Assembly (NCBI GenBank): GCA_903919615.1
Contig: CAIXIX010000443.1
Coordinates: forward strand, 1-61,764
Reading direction: 5' to 3'
DNA from: an uncultured Chthonomonas sp.
Lineage (GTDB): Bacteria; Armatimonadota; Chthonomonadetes; Chthonomonadales; Chthonomonadaceae
Length of the DNA: 61,764 bases
The translations under genes were made by a program, and so were the position numbers. Each line of letters begins with the position of its first letter. Position 1 is the first letter of the stretch. This document shows, piece after piece, positions 14,863 to 50,581 of this stretch. Below the pieces are notes generated by a model. It did no database searches. It saw only the letters and a program-made list of their open reading frames with translations, and was not told the DNA's origin.

Positions 14863-15170
14863 CGTTCGATTGACCTTTCTAATAAATCTACAATAACGGA
14901 TATCAGACGGGCTGAGTCAATATTTCGTTACCATAAGCTCATTAAATGCAGGCTACAGCAGCATGAATATCGAATATCAGTTGCGCGAGATAATATGCAA
15001 CAGATTTCGGAATATAGATTGTCCCACGATGGCGATTGCACTCCTCAGCCTTGCCGCTACGGAACATTAAGACTGCAGACAGACGTTTGCTAAGTGTTTG
15101 AGAGATTGAGCTTGCCGACCTCGCATCGAGATGTTTATTGACGATGTGGTGTCGAGGAGGATAATTGATC
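14863..15170. other. Intergenic region between divergent genes, no gene seen
   Basis: This 308-bp stretch lies between the divergent DUF4139 gene and isomerase gene and must hold both promoters. It is AT-richer than its flanks. No clear -35/-10 pair, RNA gene or repeat was identified. Confidence 0.5.
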
Positions 15171-15965
15171 ATGGGTCTTGCTGCACAAATGTATACAGTT
15201 CGGGACTTTACGCACACAGCCTCAGGGTTTGTTCAGACAGTAGAGGCCATTGCAGCTATCGGCTATGAAGCTGTTCAGCTATCGGCAGTAGGTGCAATGA
15301 ACGGAGACGCACCTGAAGTTACCGCGATTCAAGCGCGAAAGATCCTGGATGAATCTGGGCTAAAGTGCATTGCAACACATCGTAACTGGGATGACCTAGT
15401 CTACAAAACCGAGGCGGAAATTGATTTTCATCAGACATTGGGCTGTAACTTCGCCGCAATAGGCGGCCTGCCTCAGAGATATTCTGAACGTGGCGCCGAC
15501 GGGTATAGGGCCTGGCTGGCTGATGCGCAGCCGGTGATTCGTGAGTTAAAAGCTGCTGGCATCGCGTTCGGTTACCACAATCATGCTCATGAGTTTCAGA
15601 GGATTGGTTCCGCAGACGATCCCTGCAGAACGCTGTTCGATATCTTTATTCAAGAGGGCTGCCCAGACTTGATGTTGGAAATCGACGTCTATTGGGTGCA
15701 ACATTCCGGTTACAATCCTGTTCGCATATTGGATCGATGTCACGATAGGGTCCCCGTTATCCATATCAAAGACAAAGAGGTTGTGCAGGGTGATGGGCCA
15801 GTGATGGCGCCGATCGGTGAAGGCAATCTCGACTGGCAGCAGATACTCTCCGCATGCATCATGGCCGGTGTAGAGTGGTATGCGGTTGAACAGGACGTCT
15901 GCCGGCGCGACCCGTTCGACTGTCTGCGTTCCAGTTATGAGTATCTGGTTGGGCAGGGCCTGTAA
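15171..15965 (+). CDS. Sugar phosphate isomerase/epimerase (AP endonuclease 2-like TIM barrel)
   Basis: The 264-residue product matches the xylose-isomerase-like TIM barrel family: 'LAAQMYTVRDF' at the start, 'IAAIGYEAVQL', metal-ligand type 'AGIAFGYHNHAHEF' in the middle and 'ILDRCHDRVPVIHIKD' with 'EGNLDW' later, ending with 'EWYAVEQDVCRRDPF'. The family carries a divalent metal and isomerises or epimerises sugars or inositols; the substrate cannot be read off. ATG at 15171 is chosen (GAGGAGG ten bases upstream); a TTG at 15165 is only four bases from that site. It is one of three such enzymes in the window, and is followed by an MFS exporter. Confidence 0.88.
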   Translation: MGLAAQMYTVRDFTHTASGFVQTVEAIAAIGYEAVQLSAVGAMNGDAPEVTAIQARKILDESGLKCIATHRNWDDLVYKTEAEIDFHQTLGCNFAAIGGLPQRYSERGADGYRAWLADAQPVIRELKAAGIAFGYHNHAHEFQRIGSADDPCRTLFDIFIQEGCPDLMLEIDVYWVQHSGYNPVRILDRCHDRVPVIHIKDKEVVQGDGPVMAPIGEGNLDWQQILSACIMAGVEWYAVEQDVCRRDPFDCLRSSYEYLVGQGL

Positions 15966-16083
15966 CAGGTCGGATTAATTGGGCTCCTGTGCCACTTTTT
16001 ATCACTGCCGGGCGTAGGAACATCATTGCTGCTTCGCCATATCGATACTTGTTTCGGCCTAGCATGCCACTGGTGAACAAATA

Positions 16084-17685
16084 ATGTCAGACACAAGCGC
16101 CGCTCTGGCGCCTGCAGAAGAGCCGGTACCGTTCCGGTGGCTTATCCTGGCGGGGCTCATAACCGCCGCAATTTTAGAGGTCCTCGATACCACGATCGTC
16201 AATGTGGCCATGCCGCAGATGGCAGGTAACCTCGGCGCAACCACTCAGGAGATTGGGTGGGTTTCGACAGGTTATATCCTTTCTAACGTCATTGTGCTGC
16301 CAATGACAGCCTGGCTATCGTCCCTCTTCGGCAGAAAACGTTACCTCGTTGGCTCAATCTTTCTTTTTCTCATTGCGTCGTTCTTTTGCGGAGCATCCAG
16401 AACGCTTCCTGAGCTTGTTATCTTCAGAATTATTCAGGGTGCAGGCGGCGCAGCTCTCCTGTCAACTGCGCAAGCCACGCTCCGTGAGATTTTCCCGCGA
16501 GAGATGCAGGGTACAGTTCAATCGATCTATGTGTTAGGCATTATCGTCGCACCCACTTTGGGTCCTACCCTTGGAGGTTGGATCACCGATAATTACTCGT
16601 GGCCCTGGGTGTTCTATGTTAACATTCCCATCGGAATAACCAGCGCTTTCATTGTCGCAGGTTTCCTTAGTGACGCCAAGTACTCGGTACCGCACTTAAG
16701 GGTCGATTGGCCCGGCATCGGCCTGCTTGCTGTTGGGCTTGGTTGTTTGCAGTATGTTCTTGAAGAGGGCAACGAGAACGACTGGTTTCAAGATCGCGCC
16801 ATCTTGTGGCTTACGATAACAGCCGTCATTGCGTTGACCCTTTTGCTCATCTGGGAGCTCTCACCGCGTAATAAACAGCCCGTCGTGAACCTGCGAGTTC
16901 TCCGCAACCGCGATTTGAGCGCCGCCCTATTGCTCTTTGTTGCGCTCGGATTTGGTCTATATGGCGGCATTTTCATTTTTCCACTGTTCGCACAGGGAAT
17001 ACTGGGTTTCTCTCCCACGGTTACCGGTAAAGTACTAATGCCTGGCGGCCTCGCAACAGGAATAAGCGCTATCCTATGCGGACGACTGCTGAACGGAAAG
17101 CGACGCCTCGTAGAGCCTAAGTTTCTGATTATAGCGGGCATGACCCTCTTCGTGATTTCAATGTGGCAGTTGGGGCACCTAACGACAGCGAGCGGCGAAC
17201 CAGATACCAGAATGGGTCTGATTCTTCGCGGCTTCGGGCTAGGTCTGCTGTTTACTCCGATCAATATTGCAGCGTTTAACTCACTTAAGGGCTTTGAGAT
17301 TGCGCAGGGCGCGAGCATGCTTAATCTGACCCGGCAGATTGGCGGATCGCTTGGCATCGCAGCGCTAAGTACCTATCTAACGCGTGCAACAGCATCGCAT
17401 CGGATGTCTCTCGCATCCAATCTGTATCCGCAGAATCTGCTCTTCCAGCAGCGGATCTACCAGACGACGATGGGTATGATGTCGAAAGGCTATGCCGCCG
17501 TACCCGCTCGACAAGCCGCTTACGCCATCATGGACTTCACCGTGCAACGGCAGGCGATGACCATGGCCTTTAACGACTGCTTCCTGCTTATCGGCCTCTC
17601 GGTGCTGCTTGTGTCGCCTGGTGTTTTAATGCTTCGCAGCGCCGGCAAACGACCGACCGCGCCTGCGCCTGCCTCAGACCATTAG
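16084..17685 (+). CDS. MFS drug:H+ antiporter, DHA2 family (EmrB/QacA type)
   Basis: The 533-residue inner-membrane protein is predicted to have 14 transmembrane helices, starting near 'WLILAGLITAAILEVLDTTI' with the DHA2 motif 'LDTTIVNVAMPQM'. Loop motif A appears as 'SSLFGRKRYL' and antiporter motif C as 'IVAPTLGPTLGGWI'. The family exports hydrophobic compounds by proton antiport, and in diderms often works with a membrane fusion partner; none is adjacent here. The stop codon abuts the serine hydrolase reading frame. The start ATG has only a weak ribosome site. Confidence 0.92.
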   Translation: MSDTSAALAPAEEPVPFRWLILAGLITAAILEVLDTTIVNVAMPQMAGNLGATTQEIGWVSTGYILSNVIVLPMTAWLSSLFGRKRYLVGSIFLFLIASFFCGASRTLPELVIFRIIQGAGGAALLSTAQATLREIFPREMQGTVQSIYVLGIIVAPTLGPTLGGWITDNYSWPWVFYVNIPIGITSAFIVAGFLSDAKYSVPHLRVDWPGIGLLAVGLGCLQYVLEEGNENDWFQDRAILWLTITAVIALTLLLIWELSPRNKQPVVNLRVLRNRDLSAALLLFVALGFGLYGGIFIFPLFAQGILGFSPTVTGKVLMPGGLATGISAILCGRLLNGKRRLVEPKFLIIAGMTLFVISMWQLGHLTTASGEPDTRMGLILRGFGLGLLFTPINIAAFNSLKGFEIAQGASMLNLTRQIGGSLGIAALSTYLTRATASHRMSLASNLYPQNLLFQQRIYQTTMGMMSKGYAAVPARQAAYAIMDFTVQRQAMTMAFNDCFLLIGLSVLLVSPGVLMLRSAGKRPTAPAPASDH

Positions 17686-17720
17686 TGTTTACAGGATGCA
17701 ACGGGAAGAGTGTGCAGATC

Positions 17721-18836
17721 ATGTTCGATAACCTGATTAAACCTGCGCGTGCGCTCGGCTTCGATCCAGACCGTCTAAAGCTTCTTGATGCGCTCGTGGA
17801 AGATGGCATCACCGGTGGGCTGTACCCCGCCGCCGCCTATGCAGTAATGCGCCATGGCATGGTTGCTGCTCATGGAGCATTTGGCCATCCTCAGCCGGAC
17901 AGCTTTCCATCGGCGCGAACGCAGACAAACACAATCTTCGATATCGCCTCACTCACAAAGTCGTTCACAGGCGTGCTGTTAATGCGATCCGTTGAGCGTG
18001 GCAAAATATTACTCACGCAGTCGTTAGGAGCGGTGCTCCCGGCCGAAGCGGCTATGTCTCCTCTCGCTCACATCACGATCAAGCAGCTTGCTACGCACAC
18101 CTCTGGCTTGCCAGCATGGCTGCCCCTCTTCAAAAGCCCGCGGAGCGCAGTATCGGATATTCTGAACACTCATCCAACTGTGGAGCCGGGAACGAAATAC
18201 ACCTACAGCGACCTGGGGTACATATTGCTTGGGCATGTTGTCGCTCAAATCAATAGTAAACCGCTCGATCGTTTAGCTCATGACGAGCTATTTCAGCCTC
18301 TCGGAATGACCGACTCTGGCTACAATCCGCCGGTGCACCTTCATGCTCGCATCGCAGCCACCGGCCATTCCCGCGACCGGGTTGGACAGACGATTGTGGG
18401 TACCGTGCACGATGAGAATGCGAACGGATTGGGAGGCGTATCCGGGCATGCTGGTATCTTCTCTACCGTGCAGGACCTTTGCCGATTTGCGCTTGCCGTT
18501 CAGTTCCCAACGACTGCTGCGCACTTTTCCATTCCGCAGGCAGCGGGAGTAGCAGCCCGCCGTGTCGCCAGGGAGAGTCAGATCCCAGCCGCTGTGGGAA
18601 GCCACGGCATCGGCTGGTTCATTGGGGCGAATCCGTATCTGCCGTCCGGTGACCTCGCATCTCCAAAGGCTTACGGACACACGGGCTTCACTGGCACGAT
18701 GATTGTGTTTGAGCCGGACCTTGATCTCTGCATGATCCTGCTTACAAATCGAGTCTATATGCCTGGGGATGGCGCCGGAGTTTTGAAGCTGCGGCGCCAG
18801 TTTGTGAATATTGTTGTTGGATCGATCGATCAGTAG
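17721..18836 (+). CDS. Serine hydrolase, beta-lactamase class C / esterase family
   Basis: The 371-residue product has the penicillin-recognising triad: Ser77-x-x-Lys80 in 'DIASLTKSF', Tyr162-Ser-Asp in 'KYTYSDLGY' (YxN variant with Asp) and 'HTGF' in place of KTG. Such proteins are mostly esterases, D-amino acid peptidases or transesterases rather than true beta-lactamases. No signal peptide is seen, arguing for a cytoplasmic esterase or peptidase. The frame is open from a GTG at 17685 that overlaps the MFS stop, but the ATG at 17721 with GGGAAG upstream gives the more family-like N-terminus. It converges on rhaB with only eight bases between stops. Confidence 0.85.
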   Translation: MFDNLIKPARALGFDPDRLKLLDALVEDGITGGLYPAAAYAVMRHGMVAAHGAFGHPQPDSFPSARTQTNTIFDIASLTKSFTGVLLMRSVERGKILLTQSLGAVLPAEAAMSPLAHITIKQLATHTSGLPAWLPLFKSPRSAVSDILNTHPTVEPGTKYTYSDLGYILLGHVVAQINSKPLDRLAHDELFQPLGMTDSGYNPPVHLHARIAATGHSRDRVGQTIVGTVHDENANGLGGVSGHAGIFSTVQDLCRFALAVQFPTTAAHFSIPQAAGVAARRVARESQIPAAVGSHGIGWFIGANPYLPSGDLASPKAYGHTGFTGTMIVFEPDLDLCMILLTNRVYMPGDGAGVLKLRRQFVNIVVGSIDQ

Positions 18837-18844
18837 ACGTTCGA

Positions 18845-20345
18845 TCAGATCGTGCTAACCGCCGATTCTCTGATCTTCTGGAATCGCGCGTACGCTTCGT
18901 CCCACGTGGCGCTGTCTCTGCTCGGCTCATAAGTGATCAGCTCAAACGAGTTGCGAATGATCTGTCTTGCCTGCGCGAGATCCGCTATGTATCCGCGTCC
19001 AATGGCCTGTGTCAGAACATTTCCGGCCGCAGTCGCCTCGACCGGCCCTGCAATAACGGTTCTTCGTGTCGCATCTGCGGCAAGCTGGCAGAGCAGGCGA
19101 TTTTGCGTGCCGCCGCCAACGATATGAATGGTGCTAATCGGCTTGCCCCGGAACTCCTCAAGCTTCTCTACAACCCACCTGTATTTAAGTGCGAGGCTCT
19201 CCAGGCAACAGCGTACCATCGCACCAGGATCGTCTGGCGCGGTCTGTCCGGTACGTCGGCAGAAGCTCGCAATAGCGGCAGGCATGTCTACAGGCGATAG
19301 AAATTCAGTGTCGTCCGGCTCGATAAGCGCCGTAAACGGTTTGGCTTCAGCTGCAAGCTCTGTCAGGCGTGGGTAAGAGAGTTCGTTCCCGGATCTTGCC
19401 CAGGAGCGCCGACACTCCTGCACCAGCCAAAGGCCCATCACGTTTTTCAGTAAGCGAATCGTTCCGCATGCCCCACCCTCGTTTGTAAAATTGGCAGCCA
19501 GGGTTTGAGGTGAAATTCGGGGCCCACTTGTTTCGATACCAACAAGCGACCACGTGCCGCTAGAGATGTAAGCATAGTCTTCAACAAGCGCAGGCACTGC
19601 GACAACGGCCGAAGCGGTGTCGTGTTCTCCAGGAGCAATGACGGGAATGGCGCCTACCCCGCACTCTGTTGCGATGTCGGCCCGAAGCACGCCTACTGCT
19701 GTCGCAGTAGGCACTATTGGTGTGAGAATATCTGTGGGCAGGCCAAACTCCTTCAGGAGATCGATAGCCCAATCTCGAGCGCCAGGATCGACCATCTGAC
19801 TTGTGCTTGCGATGCTAAAACTCTGTGGCCTTAACACCCGTGAACCAGAAGTTGAGCAGGTCCGGCGTAAACAACAGCGTCTTCGCATACTCCAAAGCGG
19901 GCGATCCGGAAATCTTCATCTGCAGCAGTTGGTAGAGCGAATTGATCTGCATGAACTGAATGCCAGTTCTCTCGAATATTCGCTCCCGCGGAACTCTTCC
20001 AAATGCCTCTTCGAGCATGCCATCGTTTGCATGGTCTCGATAGTGGCGGGGAACCGCAAGCAGTGCGTCGTCCTTTCCAAGCAGGCCGAAGTCAACTCCC
20101 CACGTGTCTACCCCTATCGCTTCTATATCCTTGCCGAAATTGGCAGCCGCCATTGCCAGGCCGCGCTTAAGTTCAAGGAAAAGACGCGGAGTATCCCAGT
20201 GGAATGTGTCGAGGATCTTTACGGGCTGGTTCGAAAAGCGGTGTGCATCTTCGAGGCGAATTTTTTCACCGTCAAAAAAAGCGATGACTCCGCGTCCGCT
20301 CTCCGCCCCAAGATCAAACGCCAGAAACTTTGCCTCAGTAGCCAT
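18845..20345 (-). CDS. rhaB: Rhamnulokinase (FGGY kinase) interrupted by a one-base frameshift
   Basis: The frame from the ATG at 20345 encodes 'AKFLAFDLGAESGRGV', the ATP-binding opening of L-rhamnulokinase, and stops at 19815 after 'FTGVKATEF'. The +1 frame picks up at once with 'SIASTSQMVDP' and continues to 'IHIVGGGTQNRLLCQLAA' and the C-terminus at 18845. Joined, they give about 499 residues, the expected size for RhaB (E. coli about 489), which phosphorylates L-rhamnulose. The break lies in a run of four T's (coding strand GAG TTT TAG C). Both halves are otherwise intact with no other lesion, so a recent mutation, a sequencing error or true recoding are all possible. No rhaA or rhaD is nearby. 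Confidence 0.85.
19814..19823 (-). other. Frameshift site in rhaB: GAG-TTT-TAG-C
   Basis: On the coding strand Phe codon TTT is followed by the stop TAG and then C. A +1 slip lets tRNA-Phe re-pair perfectly with the overlapping TTT and read AGC next, restoring the RhaB frame. This has the same logic as the RF2 (prfB) +1 site, but no upstream Shine-Dalgarno-like stimulator is obvious, so recoding is only a hypothesis. Confidence 0.55.
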
Positions 20346-20494
20346 TTATAAATCTCCACATCCATCTACCGTCAACGCCTATGGTTAGCCTCAAGTGGGA
20401 AATCTCCTGCAAGGAATCGAGTTGTCGTATTTTATGTTGGAGCCGAGCGTGGTCGGACGCGATCTGATCACTTAGCCTGCCTATGTCAGCATCC

Positions 20495-22189
20495 TCATTG
20501 CTTTGTAATCGCATGAGTTATTGGCTTCCAAGCCAGGACCTGATGAGCGGCGACTAGCGCCTCCCGCAACTCTGGGTAGGACACAGCCTGCAAAGCGCAA
20601 TCATGCTTCATTGCTATGTCTGCAGCCAGTGCGGCAGATTGCCCCAGGATCATGAACACAGGCTCCATTCGAATTGAGCCGTAAGCGATGTGGGTAGCAG
20701 CCAGGCAGACTGGTACCATCAGGTTATCGCAATCGGACCTTCGCGGAATGATCGAACGATACGAGATCGGGTATGGAGGAGAGCCTCCAACCTGAACATC
20801 GCCTTCATTTCGCACAGCGCCATCCTCAATGAGTCTGCGACAGTTGTGAGAATCCATTGTATACGCGGCAAGTCCGATTGAGTCAGAAGCGACGGCGCTG
20901 CCCGTGCAGTTATGCTCGGTCATCACATAGTCTGATACCATTCGGCGAGCTTCTCGAATATATAGCGCATGTGGCCAACCGTCTGTATTCGGAAACTCAT
21001 CTTTGCATAGACCATACTGCTTGATACCGTCGCGGACCCTTTGAGGCACATGCGGATCGTTGGATAAGTAGTACATCAACCCCATCTGATAAGTTACGTG
21101 CTGTTGAAATATACGCTCACGAGTACGATAGCTGCCATCGGGAAACTGATAGTTCATGCCGATATAATCGGTTGAGACGGGTCCATCATTATTCTTGTCA
21201 AACTTGCCGCCCTTAAGGTCATCGAATTTATCAAATACGCTCGTCCAACCCGTATCGAGCAGCCGCTCCAAGAGTTTGTACTGGTTTGGATCGTAATGAT
21301 GTGGCTTCGGGAACGTAGTACGGTTATCAGGAATGGTAGTCAGACACATTCGGAAGTTGTAAGCCTGAACGCGCGAATCACTAGACCCTCGAGGAGGAAG
21401 AGGCGTGTCATCAATTCCAGGCAAAACGCCGCTGGCAGGCTCACCGACGACAACATAGGGGTCAATCCTCCGGTCGAACTGATGCAGATTACGCATCTCA
21501 ACGCCATTGAGAGTCTCCTCGTATTCCGAATTCGCCTCACGACCAACGCGATATTTTACATGAGACTTCGCCATGAGGTCGCCCTCATAACCTGCGTCGA
21601 TAAAGACTCTTGCGGCTACAGTTAGGCCGCTCTCCATCGTTATGGAGACAATATGCCCATTTTTGGCGCTTACACTCTGCAGAAACTCCCGGTAGTACAC
21701 TGCGATATGGTTTTCGCTAACCATCGTGTCGTAGATATGTTCGGCCACATGCGGCTCAAAACGCCACTCTTCGGGTTCTCGGTAGTGCGCACCTACAGCC
21801 CTGTAGAAATCGCGCGACATGCCGCCAATGGCATCCTTATTTCCAATGTCGGTATTGCTCAGACCACCCGCAGTGAGTCCGCCGAGGTGGGCTCCTTGCT
21901 CTATCACAACGACGCTGTGACCGCTTCGTCTCAACTGGACCGCAGCGATGATCCCTGCCGAGGTTCCACCGTAAACACAGGCATCTGCACGAACCGTATG
22001 CAACACAAACCGATGTTTTGGTGCCGTATAGTAGTGCAATCCTGCTGGAACGGTACCCGGTTTCGCGACTGGTGGGGTTCGTCTCGCAGCGTCCCCTACA
22101 GAAGGCTGCTGTGCCAGGGAATGCAGCGGAGCGGAAAACAGGGTGATCGCAATGACGAATAAATTGATACTCCAGTGCTTTAACTGCAT
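20495..22189 (-). CDS. Secreted FAD-dependent oxidoreductase (FAD_oxidored type)
   Basis: The 564-residue product has a signal peptide (residues 1-27, 'PLHSLAQQP'). The dinucleotide-binding fold is clear at about residues 70-96: 'ACVYGGTSAGIIAAVQLRR' followed by 'VVVIEQ', with 'HLGGLTAGGLSNTD' next, typical of the large FAD-dependent oxidoreductase family (PF12831) found in carbohydrate-utilisation loci of Planctomycetes and Armatimonadota. The C-terminal FAD contact is represented by 'IPRRSDCDNLMVPVCL' and 'MEPVFMILGQSAALAA'. The substrate is unknown; a sugar or sugar-derived alcohol is inferred from the neighbouring rhamnulokinase. Export of a flavoprotein in this way would normally use Sec with external folding, or Tat; no twin Arg is present. 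Confidence 0.85.
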   Translation of the reverse strand: MQLKHWSINLFVIAITLFSAPLHSLAQQPSVGDAARRTPPVAKPGTVPAGLHYYTAPKHRFVLHTVRADACVYGGTSAGIIAAVQLRRSGHSVVVIEQGAHLGGLTAGGLSNTDIGNKDAIGGMSRDFYRAVGAHYREPEEWRFEPHVAEHIYDTMVSENHIAVYYREFLQSVSAKNGHIVSITMESGLTVAARVFIDAGYEGDLMAKSHVKYRVGREANSEYEETLNGVEMRNLHQFDRRIDPYVVVGEPASGVLPGIDDTPLPPRGSSDSRVQAYNFRMCLTTIPDNRTTFPKPHHYDPNQYKLLERLLDTGWTSVFDKFDDLKGGKFDKNNDGPVSTDYIGMNYQFPDGSYRTRERIFQQHVTYQMGLMYYLSNDPHVPQRVRDGIKQYGLCKDEFPNTDGWPHALYIREARRMVSDYVMTEHNCTGSAVASDSIGLAAYTMDSHNCRRLIEDGAVRNEGDVQVGGSPPYPISYRSIIPRRSDCDNLMVPVCLAATHIAYGSIRMEPVFMILGQSAALAADIAMKHDCALQAVSYPELREALVAAHQVLAWKPITHAITKQ

Positions 22190-22238
22190 AGGTTCGAAGA
22201 GGCTCCATCTAACTGATATGTGATCGTCTGAATATGGC

Positions 22239-22267
22239 TTGACGCCTCGGACGTATTTACGTATACT
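22239..22267 (+). promoter_or_regulatory. Sigma70-type promoter immediately before mutS
   Basis: TTGACG (22239-22244), 17-base spacer, TATACT (22262-22267). Transcription is expected to begin at about 22273-22277, that is, at or a few bases before the mutS ATG at 22277, leaving no room for a Shine-Dalgarno site. Confidence 0.65.
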
Positions 22268-22276
22268 GCAGCCATT

Positions 22277-24952
22277 ATGTCAGACCCTAATTCCACCCAG
22301 CAAGGTCGCGCACTGCCTGCTTCCGTTCCACCTGGCTACGCGGGCGGAACTCCACTGATGATCCAGTATTTTGCGACACGGGCAGAGTACCCGGGCGCAG
22401 TATTGTTAATGCGTGTTGGCGATTTCTTTGAAGCCTATGGCGACGACGCCGAACTAATTGTCCGCGAACTGAACATAACACTGACAGGTCGCGAAGACGG
22501 CGGCTTGCGGATCCCTATGGCTGGCGTACCTCACCACGCAATGGAGAGGTATGTCGCACGGCTGATCGCGAAGGGCCACCGGATCGCGATAATGGATCAG
22601 GTGGAAGATCCGCGTTTTGCCAAGGGCCTCGTCAAGCGAAAAATTACCCGTGTGCTCACACCTGGCACCGTACTCGAAGACAACATGCTCGACTCCAGAA
22701 CGAATAACTATCTGGTGGCGGCCGTTGTTGGCGATCCCGTTGCGGGTGTCGGCATCGTCGATATCTCGACGGGAGAGTTCCTTACGACTGAGATCGAGGG
22801 GGATCGCCGTGTTGAGCAACTTCTGGACGAGATAATGCGACTCGAGCCTGCAGAAGTCCTGCTTCCAGAAGGCGCTAACAACGAACTAATCGAGGCTATT
22901 CGATCCTCGTGCGGAGCGACAGTAACGACCTACGCACCTCACCCGGGAGCTTCCGCTAGCGCGACAAAGAGCAGCCGCACCGTGCTGCTTGATCACTTTC
23001 AGACGCAATCGTTGCGTGGATTTGGCTGTGATGAATACACATCTGGCCTCGACGCATGCGCGCTCGTAATGCGCTATCTGCAGGACAACCAGGTGAATGC
23101 GCTGACGCACATTAGGTCGTTGAGCACCTATTCCTGCCGCGATTTCATGATGCTCGATGCGCCAGCTAGAAAGCATCTTGAACTAACGTCTTCACTTTCA
23201 GACGGAGGCCGTCAGCGCACCCTTCTAGGAGTTCTGGACGAGACTCTTACTCCTATGGGAGGCCGGCTTCTAAGGAACTGGCTGCTGGAGCCGCTGCTTG
23301 ATGTCTCTCGAATTCGCCGGCGGCATGAAGCAGTCAATGAGATCGTACATGATGCCATTCTCCGAGGAGACCTTCGCGAACTGCTTCGAGGAATGGGTGA
23401 TATGGAGCGGCTCGTAAGCCGCTCTGCCGCCGGGCTTGCAAACGCGAGAGATCTTGTTGCGCTCGCATCCGCGTTGAACAGGCTATCGGGGATTTCGCTC
23501 GCGCTTTCAACTTGCCAGTCGGAACGGCTCTGCGATATCTCTCAGAGGCTTGCTAATCCACCAGAGATTGCACAGAGAATCTCTCGTGCACTCGTTGACG
23601 ACCCACCTGCCGGTTTGCGCGAAGGCGGCATGATTCGTGAAGGATTCAATATCGAACTCGACAAGCTGCAATCTGCGGCGAATGCAGCAAGGGCCTGGAT
23701 TGCCAGCCTCGAAACCACGGAGCGTGAGCGCACCAGCATCCCCTCTTTGAAGGTAGGCTACAATGCCGTCTTCGGTTACTATATCGAGGTTACTCGGGCC
23801 AATCTCGCTAAGGTCCCCGAAAACTACATCCGTAAGCAGACAACTTCCAACTCCGAGCGATACATTACTCCGGAACTGAAGGAGTATGAGGCCCGCGTGC
23901 TTGGCGCGGATGAGAAAGCAGTTGAGCTCGAGTACGAGCTATTTCTTGGAGTTCGAGAGCGGGTTGCCGAAGCGGCTGCAGATGTGCTAGCAGTAGCAAG
24001 AGCCGTATCCGAGCTGGACGTCCTCACAGGATTCGCGGAGACAGCGGTGCGCAGGCAGTATGTAAAGCCAGAGGTTAATGCAGAAGACGCGATCGAGATC
24101 AAAGGCGGTCGGCACCCCGTTATCGAGTGGATCGGCGCGCATGGCGCCTACATTCCCAACGACTGCAAACTGGATAGTAGCTGCTCGATGTACGTGATCA
24201 CCGGGCCAAACATGAGCGGCAAATCGAGTTATCTCCGCCAGGTAGCGCTGATTGTTCTGATGGCTCAAACGGGATCCTTTGTACCTGCCGACTCGGCCGT
24301 AGTTGGTGTTGTGGATCGCATCTTCACCCGCGTTGGCGCCCACGATGAGCTCGCAAGCGGGCAATCGACCTTTATGGTGGAGATGAACGAGACTGCAAAT
24401 ATCCTGAACAATGCATCGCTGCGAAGCCTCGTTGTGCTGGATGAGATAGGCAGAGGAACGAGCACCTATGATGGCCTCTCCATTGCGTGGGCGGTGGCAG
24501 AACATCTCACGTCGATTGGCTGTAAAACGCTTTTTGCCACACACTACCACCATCTTAATGAGCTTGCTAAACAGTTTCCCGTCGTTCATAACTACCGGAT
24601 TGCCGTGAAGGAGCAAGGGGACCATATCGTTTGGCTGCGTAAGCTTGTGCCTGGTGGAACAGACAGAAGATACGGAATTCATGTTGCCAGAATGGCAGGG
24701 ATACCGGTGGAGGTAATCGATCGAGCCCGTGAGGTTCTGAAGGCTCTGGAGAAGAATGGCGCAGGAGCAACCCGCGACCTGGGCAGCATTGCTGCCGGCG
24801 CCATTACTGCAAAGAAACAAAAGATACAGCTAACTCTATTTGAAGCAGAGAAGCACCCCGTTATCGAAGAGTTGGAAGATTTGGATGTGACCGCTCTCAC
24901 TCCGATTGAGGCGCTGATGAAGCTGGATCAATGGAAGCGTAAGCTCAACTGA
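22277..24952 (+). CDS. mutS: DNA mismatch repair protein MutS
   Basis: The 891-residue product has every MutS1 hallmark: the mismatch-reading Phe-x-Glu motif at residues 50-52 ('MRVGDFFEAYGDD'), core and clamp domains, the Walker A loop at about 641-650 ('ITGPNMSGKSSYLRQV') and Walker B with the dimer loop at about 718 ('VVLDEIGRGTSTYDG'). 'FATHYHHLNEL' is the conserved switch. It recognises base mismatches and recruits MutL; mutL is not in the window. There is no ribosome site upstream and a good promoter ends about ten bases before the ATG, so the mRNA is likely leaderless. It converges on a glycosidase gene 12 bases away. Confidence 0.97.
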   Translation: MSDPNSTQQGRALPASVPPGYAGGTPLMIQYFATRAEYPGAVLLMRVGDFFEAYGDDAELIVRELNITLTGREDGGLRIPMAGVPHHAMERYVARLIAKGHRIAIMDQVEDPRFAKGLVKRKITRVLTPGTVLEDNMLDSRTNNYLVAAVVGDPVAGVGIVDISTGEFLTTEIEGDRRVEQLLDEIMRLEPAEVLLPEGANNELIEAIRSSCGATVTTYAPHPGASASATKSSRTVLLDHFQTQSLRGFGCDEYTSGLDACALVMRYLQDNQVNALTHIRSLSTYSCRDFMMLDAPARKHLELTSSLSDGGRQRTLLGVLDETLTPMGGRLLRNWLLEPLLDVSRIRRRHEAVNEIVHDAILRGDLRELLRGMGDMERLVSRSAAGLANARDLVALASALNRLSGISLALSTCQSERLCDISQRLANPPEIAQRISRALVDDPPAGLREGGMIREGFNIELDKLQSAANAARAWIASLETTERERTSIPSLKVGYNAVFGYYIEVTRANLAKVPENYIRKQTTSNSERYITPELKEYEARVLGADEKAVELEYELFLGVRERVAEAAADVLAVARAVSELDVLTGFAETAVRRQYVKPEVNAEDAIEIKGGRHPVIEWIGAHGAYIPNDCKLDSSCSMYVITGPNMSGKSSYLRQVALIVLMAQTGSFVPADSAVVGVVDRIFTRVGAHDELASGQSTFMVEMNETANILNNASLRSLVVLDEIGRGTSTYDGLSIAWAVAEHLTSIGCKTLFATHYHHLNELAKQFPVVHNYRIAVKEQGDHIVWLRKLVPGGTDRRYGIHVARMAGIPVEVIDRAREVLKALEKNGAGATRDLGSIAAGAITAKKQKIQLTLFEAEKHPVIEELEDLDVTALTPIEALMKLDQWKRKLN

Positions 24953-24964
24953 TCGAGCCAACCA

Positions 24965-26800
24965 CTACTCAAACCGAATATCATCGAGGTAGAAGGTGAT
25001 CGGTTCACCAGCCCCCCCGAGCGTCCATGCAAATCCGGTCTTGATTCGGGTAAGGTCCTTGCCCTTTAGGTCGATCGTGTACTGTTTCCACTCATTCGTG
25101 AGCAGTACATCAGGTAGCTGAGTTAGCGCTGTATCGTGGTACGGTTTGTCGCTTTTAAGCAATCCGCAGATAAACGTTATCTTCTCACCGCCCTTGGCGC
25201 CACGGGACCAGAAGGTTAACTTTGTCGCTCCTGTTAAGTTCATTCCTCCTGGAAGATCTCCCCAATCGTTCGCAGGATCCTGCCACACTACCCCACCCCA
25301 GTTATCTCTTGCCGAATAATCGACACGCATACAAGTCTTGCCACTATGCGGCTTGTCTTCACACTTTTCATCCACATGAATCGCACCCGTGTTGCCCATA
25401 TAACCGGACGGAATGTAGCTTCGTCCAGCCGCTCCGCCTTCGTCGTAGACCACATACGGCAGTTTTGCACCCTTTCCAGGAGCAGCCTTCGCGGTTTCAG
25501 CCCGCGGACCGCTTGCGTGCAGGGGGATATTCGCTACGGCGGCGCCACCACGCGAATCGCGCGCGTAAGCAAACAACCGGTAGATTCCGCCGCTGGAAGG
25601 CAGCTTAATCGTCGCCCCCTTCGCATCTGCCACCGTAATAGAGTCGGGAAAGGTTGGAGGCGCAGTTTCTGTGGCTCCATTCGTGTTGACGTTGCGCACA
25701 TCTGCCTGAAGCACCCACGTCACTTTAGGCGCGCTGATATCATGCGAGGCAATATCCAGGACAGCGTGAACTGTTGCCCCAGGATCGGCCTCCGAGCGGT
25801 CTACCTTCAGCGATTTGATCTCCGGGCAAGGATGTTCGACGCTCTTACCAGTCCAGAGTTGTGAAAGCGTATCGATTGCTCCGAGTCTGGAGCCATCCGG
25901 AAGCATCAGGCCAAACCATGTTGCAGTCGCTTCCTGCTTGTTGCCCCAGGCGAACGCGTAACTGCCAAGACAGAGGGGCTGATTGCTGATGCTCTTTGTG
26001 TAGGTAGCGGTATAGGATTGCTGTTTCGCGCTGCTTGAAAGCTCCTCTACGGCATTGAACGAGTTCGTGCCAATCTCCCAGACTCCGGCCGGGCCAAACT
26101 CGGTGATAACATAGGGCTTTGTTCCGCCCGCAGCTTTGTAGCGTTCGGCAACGCTTGGACCGCCGCCGTAAGAGTTAATCCCGACCACATCAATATTAGG
26201 ACAGAGTCGATTGATGTTCTTAACCTTGGAAGCGCCAAGCTCAGCAATAACCGTCATCGTTGGATGATTAGGATCGAGCTGTTTCACCATGGACGCGAGG
26301 TTATTGATAGCAGACCAGATAGCGGCGCCGTTGCCGTCACCCTCCATCTCGTTCCCGAGCGCCCACATCAAAAGCGCAGGATGGCTGCGATACCGTGTTA
26401 CCGCGGCCCGTACCTCTTCGATCTGTTTTGCCACCTGTTCCGCATTGTTGTAGTCGAAACCGTGTTCTCTGTGTCCCAGCCAGATGCCCAACGTGACGGT
26501 AAGTCCCAGCTTCTGCGCTTCGTCCAACAAGGGACCTGCATTGTCGACGCCCCAGGTTCTAAACGAGTTTCCTCCCATATCCTTGAGAAGCGTTTTCGAG
26601 CCGTCACCGCCTGCACCCTTGATGAAAAAGAAGGCGCCATTTCTGATAAGCTGGAACCCACCTGCGTTGTGTTCTATCTGAACTTTGCTTCCAGACTGCA
26701 CGAGCGCCTCCGATACCAAACCGCCAGGGCTTGCAAATGAAACCTGCCATGTGCCCCCCAGCACTAATACCGCCAGCATTGTTAGTAGTGTGTATTTCAT
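24965..26800 (-). CDS. Secreted glycoside hydrolase (GH2/GH5-like TIM barrel) with C-terminal carbohydrate-binding-like domain
   Basis: The 611-residue product has a signal peptide (residues 1-24). The catalytic barrel shows 'GNSFRTWGVDNAG', acid/base Glu151 in 'MWALGNEME' and nucleophile Glu234 in 'PYVITEFGPAGVW', the clan GH-A pattern. From about residue 340 there is an Ig-like segment, and from about 455 a beta-sandwich with 'YDEGGAAGRSYIPSGYMG' and a final 'ITFYLDDIRFE', resembling carbohydrate-binding modules. ATG at 26800 is chosen because AAGGA lies five bases upstream. It directly follows the LacI-type regulator gene, suggesting that the regulator controls it. Substrate unknown; a beta-linked glucan or mannan is plausible. 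Confidence 0.82.
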   Translation of the reverse strand: MKYTLLTMLAVLVLGGTWQVSFASPGGLVSEALVQSGSKVQIEHNAGGFQLIRNGAFFFIKGAGGDGSKTLLKDMGGNSFRTWGVDNAGPLLDEAQKLGLTVTLGIWLGHREHGFDYNNAEQVAKQIEEVRAAVTRYRSHPALLMWALGNEMEGDGNGAAIWSAINNLASMVKQLDPNHPTMTVIAELGASKVKNINRLCPNIDVVGINSYGGGPSVAERYKAAGGTKPYVITEFGPAGVWEIGTNSFNAVEELSSSAKQQSYTATYTKSISNQPLCLGSYAFAWGNKQEATATWFGLMLPDGSRLGAIDTLSQLWTGKSVEHPCPEIKSLKVDRSEADPGATVHAVLDIASHDISAPKVTWVLQADVRNVNTNGATETAPPTFPDSITVADAKGATIKLPSSGGIYRLFAYARDSRGGAAVANIPLHASGPRAETAKAAPGKGAKLPYVVYDEGGAAGRSYIPSGYMGNTGAIHVDEKCEDKPHSGKTCMRVDYSARDNWGGVVWQDPANDWGDLPGGMNLTGATKLTFWSRGAKGGEKITFICGLLKSDKPYHDTALTQLPDVLLTNEWKQYTIDLKGKDLTRIKTGFAWTLGGAGEPITFYLDDIRFE

Positions 26801-26835
26801 AGGTTTCCTTGGTAGCGATTGAAGCGGTGACTGTG

Positions 26836-27843
26836 TCAAATCGTATCACCGAGTGTGAGAAAAACAGGCATTCGAGTCTCCTCAGGAACTGCTTCGCCCG
26901 AGATCAGTTGCATCAGTAAATCTACAGCCGTGGAGGCCGCGTCGGCCCATCGGCAATCCACCGTTACAAGCCTTCTGTCTGTAAGACGCGGATCTAGAAG
27001 TCCATCAAAACCTGTAATGGCCAAATCCCCAGGCACAGATATGGCATGACGAAAACAGGTGGAGAGCAGACTGTACGCGGATTGGTCGTTCCAGCACGAG
27101 ACAGCGCACCGTTCACCTGTGAGCAAACGGTCATCTCTAAGCGCCGATTCGGCCGATTCGCCATCAATCTCGATGTTCAAGAGCGCATTTTCTAGTACTC
27201 CTGCTGCCAAGAGAGTGTTTTTCCATGCCAGTTTTCGTGACTCAACAGATGAAAGTTTGAACTGAGGCTCAAGGAATGCAAAACGCGTATAACCGCGTCT
27301 CAACAGTTCATGGACGAGCAGTTCCATTCCCAAGGAATCCTCACATGTAACTACTGGGAGCACAGGATCGGGATCCGCAATCGCCACAACCGGTATCGCC
27401 GTTTCTGGTCGCACTAGCGCTGAATGTGCTAAACGCTGCACCAGTGGATCCTCTTGTGAGTTGTGAACGATGAGTCCATCGATACGCCCATCGCGCAAAG
27501 AATTGAAAATCACTTCCGCAGATTTGTCACGCCTTGCTGTTTGAAGCAGTAGATCTTGCCCGTGTCTTGCGCAGGCGTGCTGCATCCCGCCAAGTATCTC
27601 AGCAAGAAAATGATTTCTGACATCATACGTGGTTCTCGTATACAGCCCAATGATGTTCGTTCTACCGTGGCGAAGTGAGCGAGCTACTGCATTGGGCCTA
27701 TAGTCTAAAAGCCGGGCCGCTTCAAGAACCCTGGCGCGAGTTTCGTCCGAAATCCTTTGGCGAGGATCGCCATTTAGAATTCGCGAGACAGTCGACTGAG
27801 ATAGCCCAAGCTTTAGGGCCAAGGTTTTGGCAGTTACGGGCAA
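26836..27843 (-). CDS. LacI-family transcriptional regulator
   Basis: The 335-residue product starts with a LacI helix-turn-helix ('TAKTLALKLGLSQSTVSRIL') and the hinge 'RPNAVARSLRHGRTNIIGL', followed by a periplasmic-binding-protein-like effector domain ('DGRIDGLIVHNSQED', 'LAITGFDGLLDPRLTDRRL'). Family members bind operators as dimers and respond to sugars. The start is TTG at 27843; a stop lies eight codons upstream and no ATG is available, and the ribosome site is weak. The downstream secreted glycosidase begins 35 bases after the stop, so the pair is probably one transcript. A perfect 18-bp palindrome lies about 43 bases upstream of the start. Confidence 0.93.
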   Translation of the reverse strand: MPVTAKTLALKLGLSQSTVSRILNGDPRQRISDETRARVLEAARLLDYRPNAVARSLRHGRTNIIGLYTRTTYDVRNHFLAEILGGMQHACARHGQDLLLQTARRDKSAEVIFNSLRDGRIDGLIVHNSQEDPLVQRLAHSALVRPETAIPVVAIADPDPVLPVVTCEDSLGMELLVHELLRRGYTRFAFLEPQFKLSSVESRKLAWKNTLLAAGVLENALLNIEIDGESAESALRDDRLLTGERCAVSCWNDQSAYSLLSTCFRHAISVPGDLAITGFDGLLDPRLTDRRLVTVDCRWADAASTAVDLLMQLISGEAVPEETRMPVFLTLGDTI

Positions 27844-27885
27844 TAGTTGTGTCTCAAATCCAGTTTAAAATTCGGAACTGCATCC

Positions 27886-27903
27886 TGCGCATACGTATGC
27901 GCA
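27886..27903. promoter_or_regulatory. Perfect 18-bp palindrome, probable LacI-type operator
   Basis: TGCGCATACGTATGCGCA is a perfect palindrome with a central CG, as LacI/GalR/PurR operators have. It lies upstream of the LacI-family gene at 26836-27843, well placed for autoregulation of the regulator-glycosidase transcript. The rest of the gap to 28161 shows no gene or RNA. Confidence 0.7.
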
Positions 27904-28161
27904 ACATTTTTGAATTATAACGCAGAAGCCGACCGCTGTCAATGCTAAATAATCCAGCAGTGTCAAAGCAGCACGTGCAGCTGTTTGCAGGGCAGTAATG
28001 CGCTTGGCGCCAGGTTACATTGAAACGAGATTCGCCTGTTGAAGAAGCCGATAATTAAAAACTCTTAAGCAACAGCATTCACTACAACTGCTTTTCTCCA
28101 GCACAATAAGCCGCGTGTGCAATCATTTCAGTCAACCAATCACACGTCAAAATCCCCACTG

Positions 28162-28190
28162 TTGACAAAGACTAAGGCATATGCTAGCAT
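28162..28190 (+). promoter_or_regulatory. Probable sigma70 promoter for the prepilin-like gene
   Basis: TTGACA (28162-28167), 17-base spacer, TAGCAT (28185-28190), about 75 bases upstream of the start at 28267. The -35 matches consensus exactly; the -10 matches at the key T, A and T positions. Confidence 0.5.
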
Positions 28191-28266
28191 TAGCTGATAC
28201 ATCACCACGCAATTCTATTTCTCATCTATGGATTGGCAAGTGGGTGATCGACGAAGGAGATTTTCC

Positions 28267-29004
28267 ATGGAAAGTAAAAGGAAAGCCTTTACACTAATCG
28301 AACTGCTAGTCGTGATCGCTATCATCGCGATTCTCGCCGCAATTCTATTCCCTGTGTTCGCACAGGCACGTGAACAGGCCCGCAAGACCGCCTGCCTCTC
28401 AAACGTGAAGCAACTGGGTCTTGGTTTTCAAATGTACGCGCAGGACTATGACGAGCGGATGCCAGGCGTCCCGTTCAACTCCTGCCCAACTTGCTGGCCC
28501 TGGGCGGCGTGGCCAGGAAGCCTCGACTGGGAAGGCGTCTTCACAGTAGCCATTCAGCCCTACACCAAGAACTTGCAGATTCTTCATTGCCCATCCGAAG
28601 CGGATAACAACCGGTGGGATGGCACGAACGGAATTAGCTACTGCTACAGCGAGTACCTGTACAACGCGAACAACAATTACGACAAGCTTTCGGCCCTATC
28701 CAATGGCGCCACAGGTGTCGCAGGCGTCGCAATCCTTTCAGAGTGCTGGTCCAGCGGTATCTTTAACGACTGGGAGACTGCTGGGCCGACGATTAATGGC
28801 GTGCTGGATGGCTTCAACCGAATCCGCTACAATCAGTACACGCCGTGGATGTCGCCGCACAATGGCACCAACTTCGGTTATGCCGACGGCCATGCTAAGT
28901 TCATCCCACAGAACAAGATCTACAGCTGGCGCATGCCTTCCGGCTGGACGGATCCGCATCAGATGCCTGTTATCTTCCCGGGCGGCAAAGAGCCCGGCCA
29001 GTAG
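28267..29004 (+). CDS. Prepilin-type N-methylation protein with H-X9-DG-like C-terminus
   Basis: The 245-residue product has a short basic leader followed by the type IV prepilin motif: '[20 protein letters not shown]', cleaved before Phe by prepilin peptidase. The segment '[19 protein letters not shown]' followed by '[10 protein letters not shown]' is characteristic of the greatly expanded pseudopilin family of Armatimonadota. The C-terminus '[15 protein letters not shown]' is the DG-type motif of the DUF1559 relatives. ATG at 28267 is chosen because GAAGGAGA lies just upstream; the earlier in-frame ATG at 28228 would add a non-prepilin leader. It probably forms part of a pilus-like or secretion fibre; such genomes carry dozens of copies. 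Confidence 0.92.
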
Positions 29005-35317: not shown

Positions 35318-36802
35318 TCATATGAGATGGTCCAGATAGATTGTATGAGCCCTATTATCGGGGCCGAGCGTCTGGCCCATTCTAGCAGGAACAGATTCGA
35401 TGGATTCGATTAATCCGGAGCCTTCGAGAGCAAGCAGAGCGGCGCCGCGGCTGCTCGCCTCGGGTTCACTTGCAAAAGTGATGGGTAATCCTATCACGTC
35501 CGCGAATATCGTTCGCCACGGTGCGGAATGCCCCAAAGCGCCTCCCGACGCGACAATTTTTGTCACGTGAGGAAACATGGTCTTGAGGCTTTCGGTTGCC
35601 GTTAGAAACTGCATCGCGACGGCTTCCATCGCGGCACGCAGAATGTGAATTGGCTGGGTGTCGAGGTTCATCCCAAGTAAGGATGCTCTGGAATCGGGGT
35701 TCCACCCCATGCTGCGTTCCCCGGCAAGAAACGGCATAAATGTGAGACCATGATTGCACGGCTCCATAGCGGCAATGGCGGATTCTGTTTCGTCCTGTGC
35801 GGGCAGATTAAGCGTCTCACGCATAAACGTGTATACATGCCCCCCGTCACTAAAAGCCGCGCCGGCTATTGCCCTTCGGCCATCTACACGATAGCGCCAT
35901 ATGCCGCGCGGAAGCTCAGGATCGCCAATACCATCGCGATCAATGTCCCAAACCGCCCGGATCGCCCCGCTCGTCCCCAGATTGATGGCCAGCTTATCGG
36001 GAGAGCAGCACCCACTGCCGATATTTCCACACGCACCATCTCCTACTGCGGGATAGAAGGGAACGTCCTTGAGTTCGGGCCAGCGGGCGGCAAAGTCAGG
36101 CAAAAGCCCTATGGCGGTTTCCGAATGCGTTGCGATAGGCGAAAGTATCGCCTCATTAATCTGGAGCAGCTCCAGGATCTCCTGATCCCATCGGCATTCG
36201 ACCTGGTTGAACAGCCCGGTTCCCGACGCCATCGAGATTGAAACATGTACCGCACTCAGCCCGAAGAGCCGTTTGAGCAGATACTCGCTGGGCGAGATAA
36301 ATCTTGCAGCGAGCTTGTACAATTCTGGTCTATCCTGTTTTAACCAGGAGAGTTTGGCAGGGTAAAAGCAGGGGTGCAGGACACAACCTGTTCGGGAGTG
36401 CAGCTTGGAGCTATCCCATTGGGAACGCAGTTTTGTTGCGATGGCTGCGGATCGATTGTCTGCCCAGCTGAAAATTGGCGATAAGGCATCGCCATTTCGC
36501 CCCAACACAAGCATGGAGTGCCAGAAAGTGGATATTCCAACGGCGCGGATGTGCGACGCGATCCCGGAATCGCGGGCCTGCTGCATCGCGATATCGAGCG
36601 TTTCGAAGATGGCAGCACACCATGCGTCGGCGTCCATTTCGACTCCACCGTCGGCGGTAGTGCGCATCAGGTACTGAACCTGGGCTTTTACGCCAGGAAC
36701 TTCACGGCCAAGCGTATCCCAAATGCCAACTCGGGTTGACGACGTACCGGCATCGATACTCAACACAAGATCCGTTGAGGAGATCGTGTCTATTTCTGAC
36801 AT
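35318..36802 (-). CDS. FGGY-family carbohydrate kinase (gluconokinase/xylulokinase-like)
   Basis: The 494-residue product starts with the FGGY ATP-site strand 'LVLSIDAGTSSTRVGIWD' and contains 'AVGISTFWHSMLVLG', 'GSGCCSPDKLAINLGTSGA' and the C-terminal 'KIVASGGALGHSAPWRTIFA' with 'GLPITFASEPEASSRGAALL', the FGGY family signature region. It phosphorylates a pentulose, hexulose or gluconate; the substrate is not predictable by eye. Only two bases separate it from the upstream glycosidase gene, so it probably phosphorylates a sugar released by that enzyme. Confidence 0.9.
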   Translation of the reverse strand: MSEIDTISSTDLVLSIDAGTSSTRVGIWDTLGREVPGVKAQVQYLMRTTADGGVEMDADAWCAAIFETLDIAMQQARDSGIASHIRAVGISTFWHSMLVLGRNGDALSPIFSWADNRSAAIATKLRSQWDSSKLHSRTGCVLHPCFYPAKLSWLKQDRPELYKLAARFISPSEYLLKRLFGLSAVHVSISMASGTGLFNQVECRWDQEILELLQINEAILSPIATHSETAIGLLPDFAARWPELKDVPFYPAVGDGACGNIGSGCCSPDKLAINLGTSGAIRAVWDIDRDGIGDPELPRGIWRYRVDGRRAIAGAAFSDGGHVYTFMRETLNLPAQDETESAIAAMEPCNHGLTFMPFLAGERSMGWNPDSRASLLGMNLDTQPIHILRAAMEAVAMQFLTATESLKTMFPHVTKIVASGGALGHSAPWRTIFADVIGLPITFASEPEASSRGAALLALEGSGLIESIESVPARMGQTLGPDNRAHTIYLDHLI

Positions 36803-43908: not shown

Positions 43909-44697
43909 CTACAGCCCCACGGTCTGTCCGCCATCGACGAGGATGGTCTGCCCGGTGATGTAGCTGGCCGCCTCAGAACACAGGAATGTGACTGCGTTCG
44001 CCAGCTCTTCGGGACGGCCAAGCCTGCCGACTGGTATTCGATTTTCCGCCTGGCTCCTTGCCTCCGCGAAGCTGATGCCGCCAATCTGAGCATTGCGTTC
44101 GTGCAGATGCTTGAGGCGATCTGTATCGAAGCTGCCTGGAGCAACATTGTTAACCGTAATTCCATCTAAGGCGTATTCGTTTGAAAGCGTTTTGCACAGG
44201 CCTACAATGCCTGCCCGGATAGTATTCGAAAGCAGGAGGCCAGAGATGGGCTGCCGTACTGAGGTCGAGGTGATCACGACGATTCGTCCCCACTTCTGAT
44301 CTTTCATTCCCGGCAAGACCGATCGCAATAGAGTTGTGAATGAAAAAAGTGTGCTATCGAGCGCCTGCTGCCACTTCTCGTCGTCAAGGGTCTCGAAGGT
44401 ACCTGCTGGGGGCCCACCACTGTTAGAGATCAGGATACTGACCGGTCCAAGCTGGCTGGCAGCACTTTCGACAGCAGTTTGAAGCTGCTCAGCGACGGTC
44501 ACATCCGCAGTGTATGCGACGACCTCTGCGCCAGTCTCAGTGCGGATCTCTGCTGCTGCGGCTTCGATCGCCTCTGAGGATCGCGAACATATCGCAATGC
44601 GAGCGCCCTCTCTGGCAAGCGACAGCGCCGTTGCATAGCCGAGACCCTTGCTGGCCGCCGCCACAAATGCAACTTTACCCGCGAGTTTGTAGTCCAT
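43909..44697 (-). CDS. SDR-family oxidoreductase with altered catalytic motif
   Basis: The 262-residue product has the Rossmann start '[20 protein letters not shown]', '[12 protein letters not shown]' (NAG variant) and the C-terminal '[14 protein letters not shown]', so it is a classical-type SDR, about the size of 3-oxoacyl-ACP reductases. In place of the YxxxK active site it reads Ser157-Asn-Thr-Ile-Arg161 after Ser144/Ser146. Several SDR subgroups carry this kind of replacement; whether they reduce substrates is uncertain. The 235 bp between mnmE and this gene holds no supported gene. Confidence 0.85.
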
Positions 44698-44939
44698 TAT
44701 CTGTATTCCCTTCGATAGCGTGAATCTTGTTTCATTTTTAGTTCTGCACAGGTCATTTGCGATCCTGCTAGTGCACGATTCGTGAAACGCCAGTTGAGCT
44801 CAAGTGTCCATGCAGTAGTTAGCGTCGTCAATGATAATAACGGCCGAAGCAGTTGACGCCATTGGCACGACGTTGCGTTCGCGCGATATAATGGCGCATC
44901 AGATATCTGAATGACTACAGGCATAGGGAGATATAACGG

Positions 44940-45416
44940 ATGACGCAATCTTCGGGGCGTATTACGTGCCCGCGTTGTGGGGCGAATAATTTTGAAACGG
45001 TTACGAGCTGTTGGAAGTGCTCCACGCCCTTAGCTGCAGGAGCGGGAAGTCGAGGAGCGATCACACTAGCATCCGAGCTAAACAGTGAATCCGCTCGACA
45101 TATTCCGGACGCAAGAGTGAGCACGGGAGATCCGGATCTTGCAAATCGTGCCGCGCTTTACCTTGCGCTCGTGATACCGTTCATCGGTCTACCTGTCGGT
45201 TGGGTGTTCATGATGATTGAGGATCGTCGGCTGCAGAGGGTCGGAAGAACCTGCGTCATCTGGAGCCTGGCTGGCTTGCTATTTCATATTGTGCTGTTTG
45301 GAGCCTTCTCGAACATGGTGGTGCACCAGATCGGTCCATTATTAAAGATAATGTCTGGGGCGGCTGGGGGCTCAAGCGCTGGCGGAGGCGAATCTGGATT
45401 GCCTCAGATGCCGTGA
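44940..45416 (+). CDS. Zinc-ribbon membrane protein
   Basis: The 158-residue product has an N-terminal zinc ribbon (CPRCG and CWKC, residues 10-29) followed by two transmembrane helices ('LYLALVIPFIGLPVGWVF' and 'VIWSLAGLLFHIVLFGAF') and a Gly/Ser-rich tail. It may be a small regulatory or adaptor membrane protein; no family function is known. A GGGAGA site precedes the ATG. Upstream at 44887-44892 lies a TATAAT, a likely -10. Confidence 0.7.
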   Translation: MTQSSGRITCPRCGANNFETVTSCWKCSTPLAAGAGSRGAITLASELNSESARHIPDARVSTGDPDLANRAALYLALVIPFIGLPVGWVFMMIEDRRLQRVGRTCVIWSLAGLLFHIVLFGAFSNMVVHQIGPLLKIMSGAAGGSSAGGGESGLPQMP

Positions 45417-45495
45417 AAGCAGGGACGATCGAAAAGGGAGAAGGAACAGGGATCCGGGAAGAAGGGGCTTGTTTTTTTGTAGGCAGACAAAAAGG

Positions 45496-45533
45496 AGGCG
45501 CCTGCCGCTGAACTGCTTAAGCGGAAGGCGCCT
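45496..45533 (-). terminator. Terminator for the isomerase gene (minus strand)
   Basis: A 14-bp stem with one mismatch (45496-45509 with 45520-45533) followed on the minus strand by CCTTTTTG. The gap 45534-45725 shows no supported gene. Confidence 0.7.
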
Positions 45534-45725
45534 GCCATCACATCAGGTTGAAAGCGCGCGTAACGGATGGGCAAATTATGGACCGGTCGCGGTTATAGAG
45601 ATAATTCCAATCGCGTTTGGCCACGACGCTAGAATACAGCATTGAGAAAACTAGCGATATGAACTCCGTAACACGTTTACTGTGAACGATCTCATGCCAG
45701 CCTGTTTTACCGTTCGTCGCAATCC

Positions 45726-46472
45726 CTATTTCCCCATCGCGCGCAGGTTCTTGAGGCACTTTTCAACACATTCGAGAGGGCTAAAGGCATAGCTCTCCTG
45801 CTCCACAACATACCATTCTGTCTTGCCAATCGTTTCACACAGTTCGAAGATCTCCGCCCACTTTACTTCGCCTTCTCCAACAAGAGCGTTGTTGTCTGTA
45901 CTGCTAAACTCTTTGAGGTGTACCGTTGCGGCACGCCCCGGGTACTTTCGCAGGAAGGGTCCGGCCTCAGCCCCGCCATGCATCGCGTTACCTGTATCAA
46001 ACTGCATGATCACCTTGTCGCTGGTGTTCCCAAAAAACGTATCCCAGGGCAGTTCACCTTCGAGCTCTTTGAATTCTGTGTGATGATTGTGGTAACCAGT
46101 GCGCATTCCAAACGGCTCAAGCTGTTCGGCGATATGATTCATGAGGCCCGCAGTTTCCAGCCAGGCAGCCTTGGAAGATGTGCGGTGGCCCGGCAGGCCC
46201 GGTACAATAAGAAATCGGTTGCCGAGGGTCTGCTGAAAGTCAATAGTTCTCTTGAGCTCATCACCAAGCAGTGTATCGATTCCGAGGTGGCCGCCACAAC
46301 ACACAAGGCCGTTGTCATCTAGCAGTTTGCGGACATCCTCTGCCGAATGGCCGTAATAACCTGCAAACTCAACACCCTGGTAGCCCATGTTGGCTACTGC
46401 TTCCAGTATTGATGGCAGATCTCGAGCAGCGTCGTCCCGAAGTGAATAAAGCTGCAGCGCTATTGGTATCAT
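45726..46472 (-). CDS. Sugar phosphate isomerase/epimerase (TIM barrel)
   Basis: The 248-residue product shows 'MIPIALQLYSLRDDAARDLP', 'NMGYQGVEFAGYYGHSAEDV', 'GMRTGYHNHHTEF' and 'VIMQFDTGNAMHGGAE', with 'GEVKWAEI' and 'EWYVVEQESYAFSPLECV' at the end, the IolE/IolI-like pattern with metal-binding Glu, Asp and His. A very good GGAGGACGAGG ribosome site precedes the ATG at 46472. It is the third such enzyme in the window; the reaction is unknown. Confidence 0.88.
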   Translation of the reverse strand: MIPIALQLYSLRDDAARDLPSILEAVANMGYQGVEFAGYYGHSAEDVRKLLDDNGLVCCGGHLGIDTLLGDELKRTIDFQQTLGNRFLIVPGLPGHRTSSKAAWLETAGLMNHIAEQLEPFGMRTGYHNHHTEFKELEGELPWDTFFGNTSDKVIMQFDTGNAMHGGAEAGPFLRKYPGRAATVHLKEFSSTDNNALVGEGEVKWAEIFELCETIGKTEWYVVEQESYAFSPLECVEKCLKNLRAMGK

Positions 46473-46535
46473 CCTCGTCCTCCATTTAGAACCGTAATCG
46501 CAGTTTGTCTTTTATGCCCTTATGCGAGAAGGCAT

Positions 46536-47651: not shown

Positions 47652-47807
47652 CCGACGTTAATCTCCCGGTGCAAACGCGAAACGGATAAGATTGATGACA
47701 AATCCAGTGATCGAAATATTCAACTTTCAACCATGCTATTCCTTCACACTCAGTCAAAGCACAGCGTCTTCAGCATCACCATAATCAGTCAACCAAGTAC
47801 AGTCTGG

Positions 47808-49118: not shown

Positions 49119-49263
49119 ATTAGCGCCTTATAATCAAAACAGTGTTTGCAGAGTGTCGTTCGGCGGATCGCGCATCATGGTTGCGGATGCCAAAGATCTG
49201 GTCAATTGTCAGGTTGAGCGTAAAGTAGAGTGCGCCAGTGTAGCGACGCGAGCCAAAGCAAGC

Positions 49264-49292
49264 TTGACAGCACATAGGCTCACAGATATAAT
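49264..49292 (+). promoter_or_regulatory. Consensus sigma70 promoter for hrcA-grpE
   Basis: TTGACA (49264-49269), 17-base spacer, TATAAT (49287-49292): a perfect consensus promoter, about 130 bases upstream of the hrcA ATG. No CIRCE element (TTAGCACTC-N9-GAGTGCTAA) is seen in the gap. Confidence 0.85.
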
Positions 49293-49421
49293 AAAGTTTA
49301 ACACAGGTAAAGTTGATGCCGGTTGGGCCGCCCGAAACTTGGACTAAAGTCGTAGTGGGATATACGTACTAGGTGGCAGCCGTACGGCATCCATACGTTT
49401 ACCGGGGAGTCTAATCGATAA

Positions 49422-50468: not shown

Positions 50469-50554
50469 TTGTCATTCTGCGATATTTGTAGGGCGACGCT
50501 GAACAAACGAAGCCATGCAGAAGCGCTAGAACGTATTAGTTAAGGAACAGTTGT

Positions 50555-50581
50555 CGGCGACCGCAAAAAATGTGGTCGCCG
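50555..50581 (+). other. Hairpin in the hrcA-grpE gap
   Basis: An 8-bp stem (50555-50562 with 50574-50581) with further weaker pairing inside an A-rich loop. It is not followed by a T-run on the plus strand. It could be a processing or RNA-stability element controlling the hrcA to grpE ratio. Confidence 0.5.

Follow-up and report, generated by a model that had tools for sequence, protein, structure and literature searches.

The window analyzed here (61,764 nucleotides) is the entire contig C443 of a draft genome of the Chthonomonadaceae (Armatimonadota), designated G000, which comprises 7.4 Mb in 614 contigs and is 96% complete. On the minus strand of the window, from 20345 to 18845, we observed a rhamnulokinase gene (rhaB) whose reading frame is cut at GAG-TTT-TAG-C. 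The ATG at 20345, with GTGGAG approximately 10 bases upstream, opens a first frame (20345..19815, minus strand) of 176 amino acids that ends in ...TGVKATEF and is followed by TAG. The 5' part of the gene (19818..20345, minus strand) thus consists of 176 codons, from the ATG through the TTT that precedes the stop. The break itself occupies 19815..19820 on the same strand, with TTTT at 19820-19817 and TAG at 19817-19815, followed by C. The 3' part (18845..19816, minus strand) contains 323 codons plus a stop in the +1 frame, which is open over 19915..18848 and picks up as SIASTSQ... without loss at the break. When one T of 19817-19820 is skipped, the two parts, both intact, read through as a rhamnulokinase of 499 residues. 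The original prediction had stated that the halves join in this way, and this reading was confirmed both by the frames and by the matches to TIGR02627, in which the 5' part covers model positions 1-169 and the 3' part positions 173-454 in contiguous fashion. Neither frame alone reaches the cut-off of this model, and intact relatives likewise fall below it. The break lies within the FGGY NH2-terminal domain, with Pfam FGGY_N matched over 3-172 by the 5' part and over 173-244 by the 3' part.

The nearest relatives as judged from rhaB are other draft genomes of the Chthonomonadaceae, including G001 (an uncultured Chthonomonas sp. of the same genus; 75% amino acid identity), whose full-length homologue spans both halves with identities of 80% and 71%, respectively. 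Among the 61 genomes searched, G000 alone has its rhaB match divided into two adjoining segments that lie in different frames. The gene is a single open frame of about 495 to 548 amino acids in G001 and all other family members searched, and, elsewhere in the phylum, nearly every genome that possesses rhaB likewise has it in a single frame. Alignment of the break site with approximately 130 other loci, a number that includes some places counted twice, revealed neither a stop nor TTTT, the usual pattern being GAG or GAA followed by TTC, TTT, TAC, TAT, or another codon and then a sense codon. The sequence in G001 is GAG TTC AGC ATC GCC, compared with GAG TTTT AGC ATC GCA in the window. Given that the relatives show neither the stop nor the T run at this position, the site is, on the basis of these alignments, not a conserved recoding element. 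The original prediction had itself stated that recoding would be refuted if the frame were uninterrupted in relatives and this context absent from them, and such relatives are what the comparison returned. In one further genome, G031, rhaB is in pieces on two contigs (C178 and C264), which looks like assembly breakage.

The region from approximately 15 to 29 kb of the window (15165-29004) is collinear with 42 to 58 kb of contig C4 of G001, and that from approximately 44 to 57 kb (43909-57445) matches 39 to 16 kb of the same contig in inverted orientation, so that the two blocks differ in relative order and orientation between the window and C4. The stretch between them (29.4-43.7 kb) is nearly without counterpart in the portion of C4 that was read, and it contains another FGGY kinase gene at 35318-36802. 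An intact mutS with 78% identity to that of G001 is present at 22277-24952, two genes from rhaB.

The rhaB gene is single-copy in G000, and no second intact or strain-variant copy was found in the assembly. The genes for rhaA (contig C32) and a bifunctional rhaD-type aldolase (contig C364) are intact, with no sign of decay of the rhamnose pathway in these two genes. Among 39 same-genus proteins matched with at least 45% identity in sampled G000 DNA, 38 were unsplit and rhaB was the sole split gene. The approximately 28 MFS genes of the genome are also intact, apart from one short match on C609 that runs into the contig end, as are its other FGGY kinase genes; these three sets of genes give no indication of a generally frameshift-prone assembly. 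Substitutions specific to the window were concentrated at third codon positions, with 46 of 70 in the 5' half and 58 of 104 in the 3' half, and those specific to G001, in which rhaB is intact, were distributed similarly (26/41 and 63/110, respectively). No second lesion was apparent in either half. Both halves have therefore been changing as a functional gene does, and no decay is visible, although the test is only a rough one because substitutions at third positions are close to saturated. Together with the intact rhaA and aldolase genes and the single-copy status of rhaB, this pattern suggests that the lesion is either very young or not real.

The site has been likened to the +1 frameshift of prfB, and G000 itself provides a reference for this comparison. 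Its prfB carries a canonical +1 site, GAGCTGGGAGGCCATCTTTGACC, with GGGAGG, a short spacer, and CTT-TGA-C, and a canonical site was also recognized in all but one of the nine further family members examined. The G000 prfB site is located at about base 12 of contig C542 (L147/L161). In the known prfB motif, a Shine-Dalgarno (SD)-like element is positioned three bases before the slippery sequence (PMC12421855). The sequence ahead of TTT in rhaB is GTTAAGGCCACAGAG; it contains no SD-like element 3 to 6 bases upstream of TTT, with the nearest purine stretch, AAGG, starting 12 bases before it. The earlier remark that an SD-like stimulator is lacking thus held true, and the absence is telling because the prfB gene of the same genome has one: recoding that is real in this genome would be expected to come with a stimulator. 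RNA folding of the flanks was ordinary, with z scores of 0.05 downstream and –1.09 upstream, and structure on either side thus offers no support for a stimulator of the shift.

A programmed shift of the prfB type, in which tRNA-Phe slips from TTT to TTT over a slow TAG-C stop to give full-length RhaB, would account for the perfect re-pairing of the P-site codon, for the in-frame stop followed by C, and for the apparent constraint on both halves of the gene. Some prfB genes indeed use TTTTTGA with tRNA-Phe, but these variants retain both the SD-like element and TGA (PMC12421855), whereas the stop in rhaB is TAG. Only one feature of prfB-type sites is found in rhaB, a slippery codon that can re-pair in the +1 frame directly before a stop; the SD-like sequence and conservation of any part of the site among relatives are both missing. 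A full-text literature search on rhamnulokinase and frameshift returned no report of rhaB recoding, as judged by titles and abstracts. We know of no regulatory logic for a kinase read through a stop of the RF1 type. A prfB-type shift is thus very improbable, and a lineage-specific, SD-independent version that keeps rhaB functional at TTT-TAG-C in one species is slightly less probable still.

Nor is the re-pairing over a stop surprising in itself. In 21 neighboring conserved genes (24.9 kb), a T added to a TTT codon would bring a stop directly into frame at 32 of the 150 such codons, and +1 re-pairing over it would be perfect every time; when every run of at least three bases in the same genes is considered, duplication of one base has this outcome, a stop at once and perfect re-pairing, in 32 of 945. 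At rhaB, a T added to a TTT codon that precedes AGC yields the configuration automatically. The perfect re-pairing pointed out in the original prediction is present at TTT-TAG-C, but its frequency at comparable codons deprives it of value by itself as evidence of recoding, and such a configuration is nothing unusual where a T run has undergone an indel. The homopolymer invoked in the same prediction is likewise real (19817-19820) but consists of only four T residues, and 190 runs of at least four bases are present in 25 kb of neighboring coding DNA.

The T run also raises the possibility of transcriptional slippage or phase variation, which would restore the frame in some transcripts or cells. 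Tracts that support such processes are normally much longer than four bases, and no relative has kept the run at this site, so that we consider this mechanism more doubtful than either form of +1 recoding. The least probable explanation, which is close to negligible, is a two-chain kinase assembled from separately translated halves. An ATG is available in the downstream frame at 19888, but the GGAG upstream of it is only one base away, a shorter spacing than a normal ribosome-binding site would have; in addition, the break falls inside the FGGY NH2-terminal domain and abutting halves occur in no other genome among the 61 searched.

We conclude that the locus is very probably an ordinary rhamnulokinase gene with expansion of TTT to TTTT in one assembly, attributable to a young mutation, a strain variant, or a consensus error and not to recoding. 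One base would have been added to the short T run, and translation of the gene as written would stop at codon 177 to give a truncated product of 176 residues. We infer that this product is presumably inactive, and we likewise infer the timing of the indel. The extra T may have arisen as a very recent mutation, may represent a minor strain variant of the sequenced population, or may be an error in the draft consensus. We lean slightly toward the first two possibilities, which together have about an even chance, over a consensus error, which is a little less probable, because indel errors are not abundant in this assembly and a run of four bases is not a strong error site. The same run is a weak hotspot for slippage as well as for short-read error and counts against a one-base indel, as do the weak-looking stop context TAG-C and the re-pairable P-site codon. 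Of the three options originally offered, error or young mutation therefore stands, whereas prfB-like recoding is unsupported given the uninterrupted relatives and the lack of a stimulator.

The importance of this finding beyond annotation is small. The locus illustrates that insertion of a T in a TTT codon is enough to place a re-pairable codon over a stop, so that this feature should not be taken as evidence for recoding unless conservation and a stimulator accompany it. If the indel is real, the strain may have lost the ability to use RhaB for growth on rhamnose.

Compared with known RhaB proteins (TIGR02627; FGGY carbohydrate kinases PF00370/PF02782), the two halves in the window match adjoining parts of the model and jointly cover it, and the difference lies in the frame, which is broken at codon 177 in the assembly of the window only. 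The site resembles the prfB +1 system in having a pyrimidine run before a stop and C together with a P-site tRNA able to re-pair, and it differs from this system in having TAG instead of TGA, in the absence of an SD-like stimulator and of conservation, and in having no known autoregulation; it shares with prfB only that part of the motif which the T insertion itself creates. When frame transitions were surveyed across prokaryotic genomes with GeneTack, homology-confirmed singleton frameshifts were attributed mainly to sequencing error or recent indels (PMC3711429). The rhaB break is confined to one genome and the gene is otherwise free of decay, and, as a one-off, homology-confirmed break in an otherwise conserved gene, it resembles the singletons of that survey with no notable difference.
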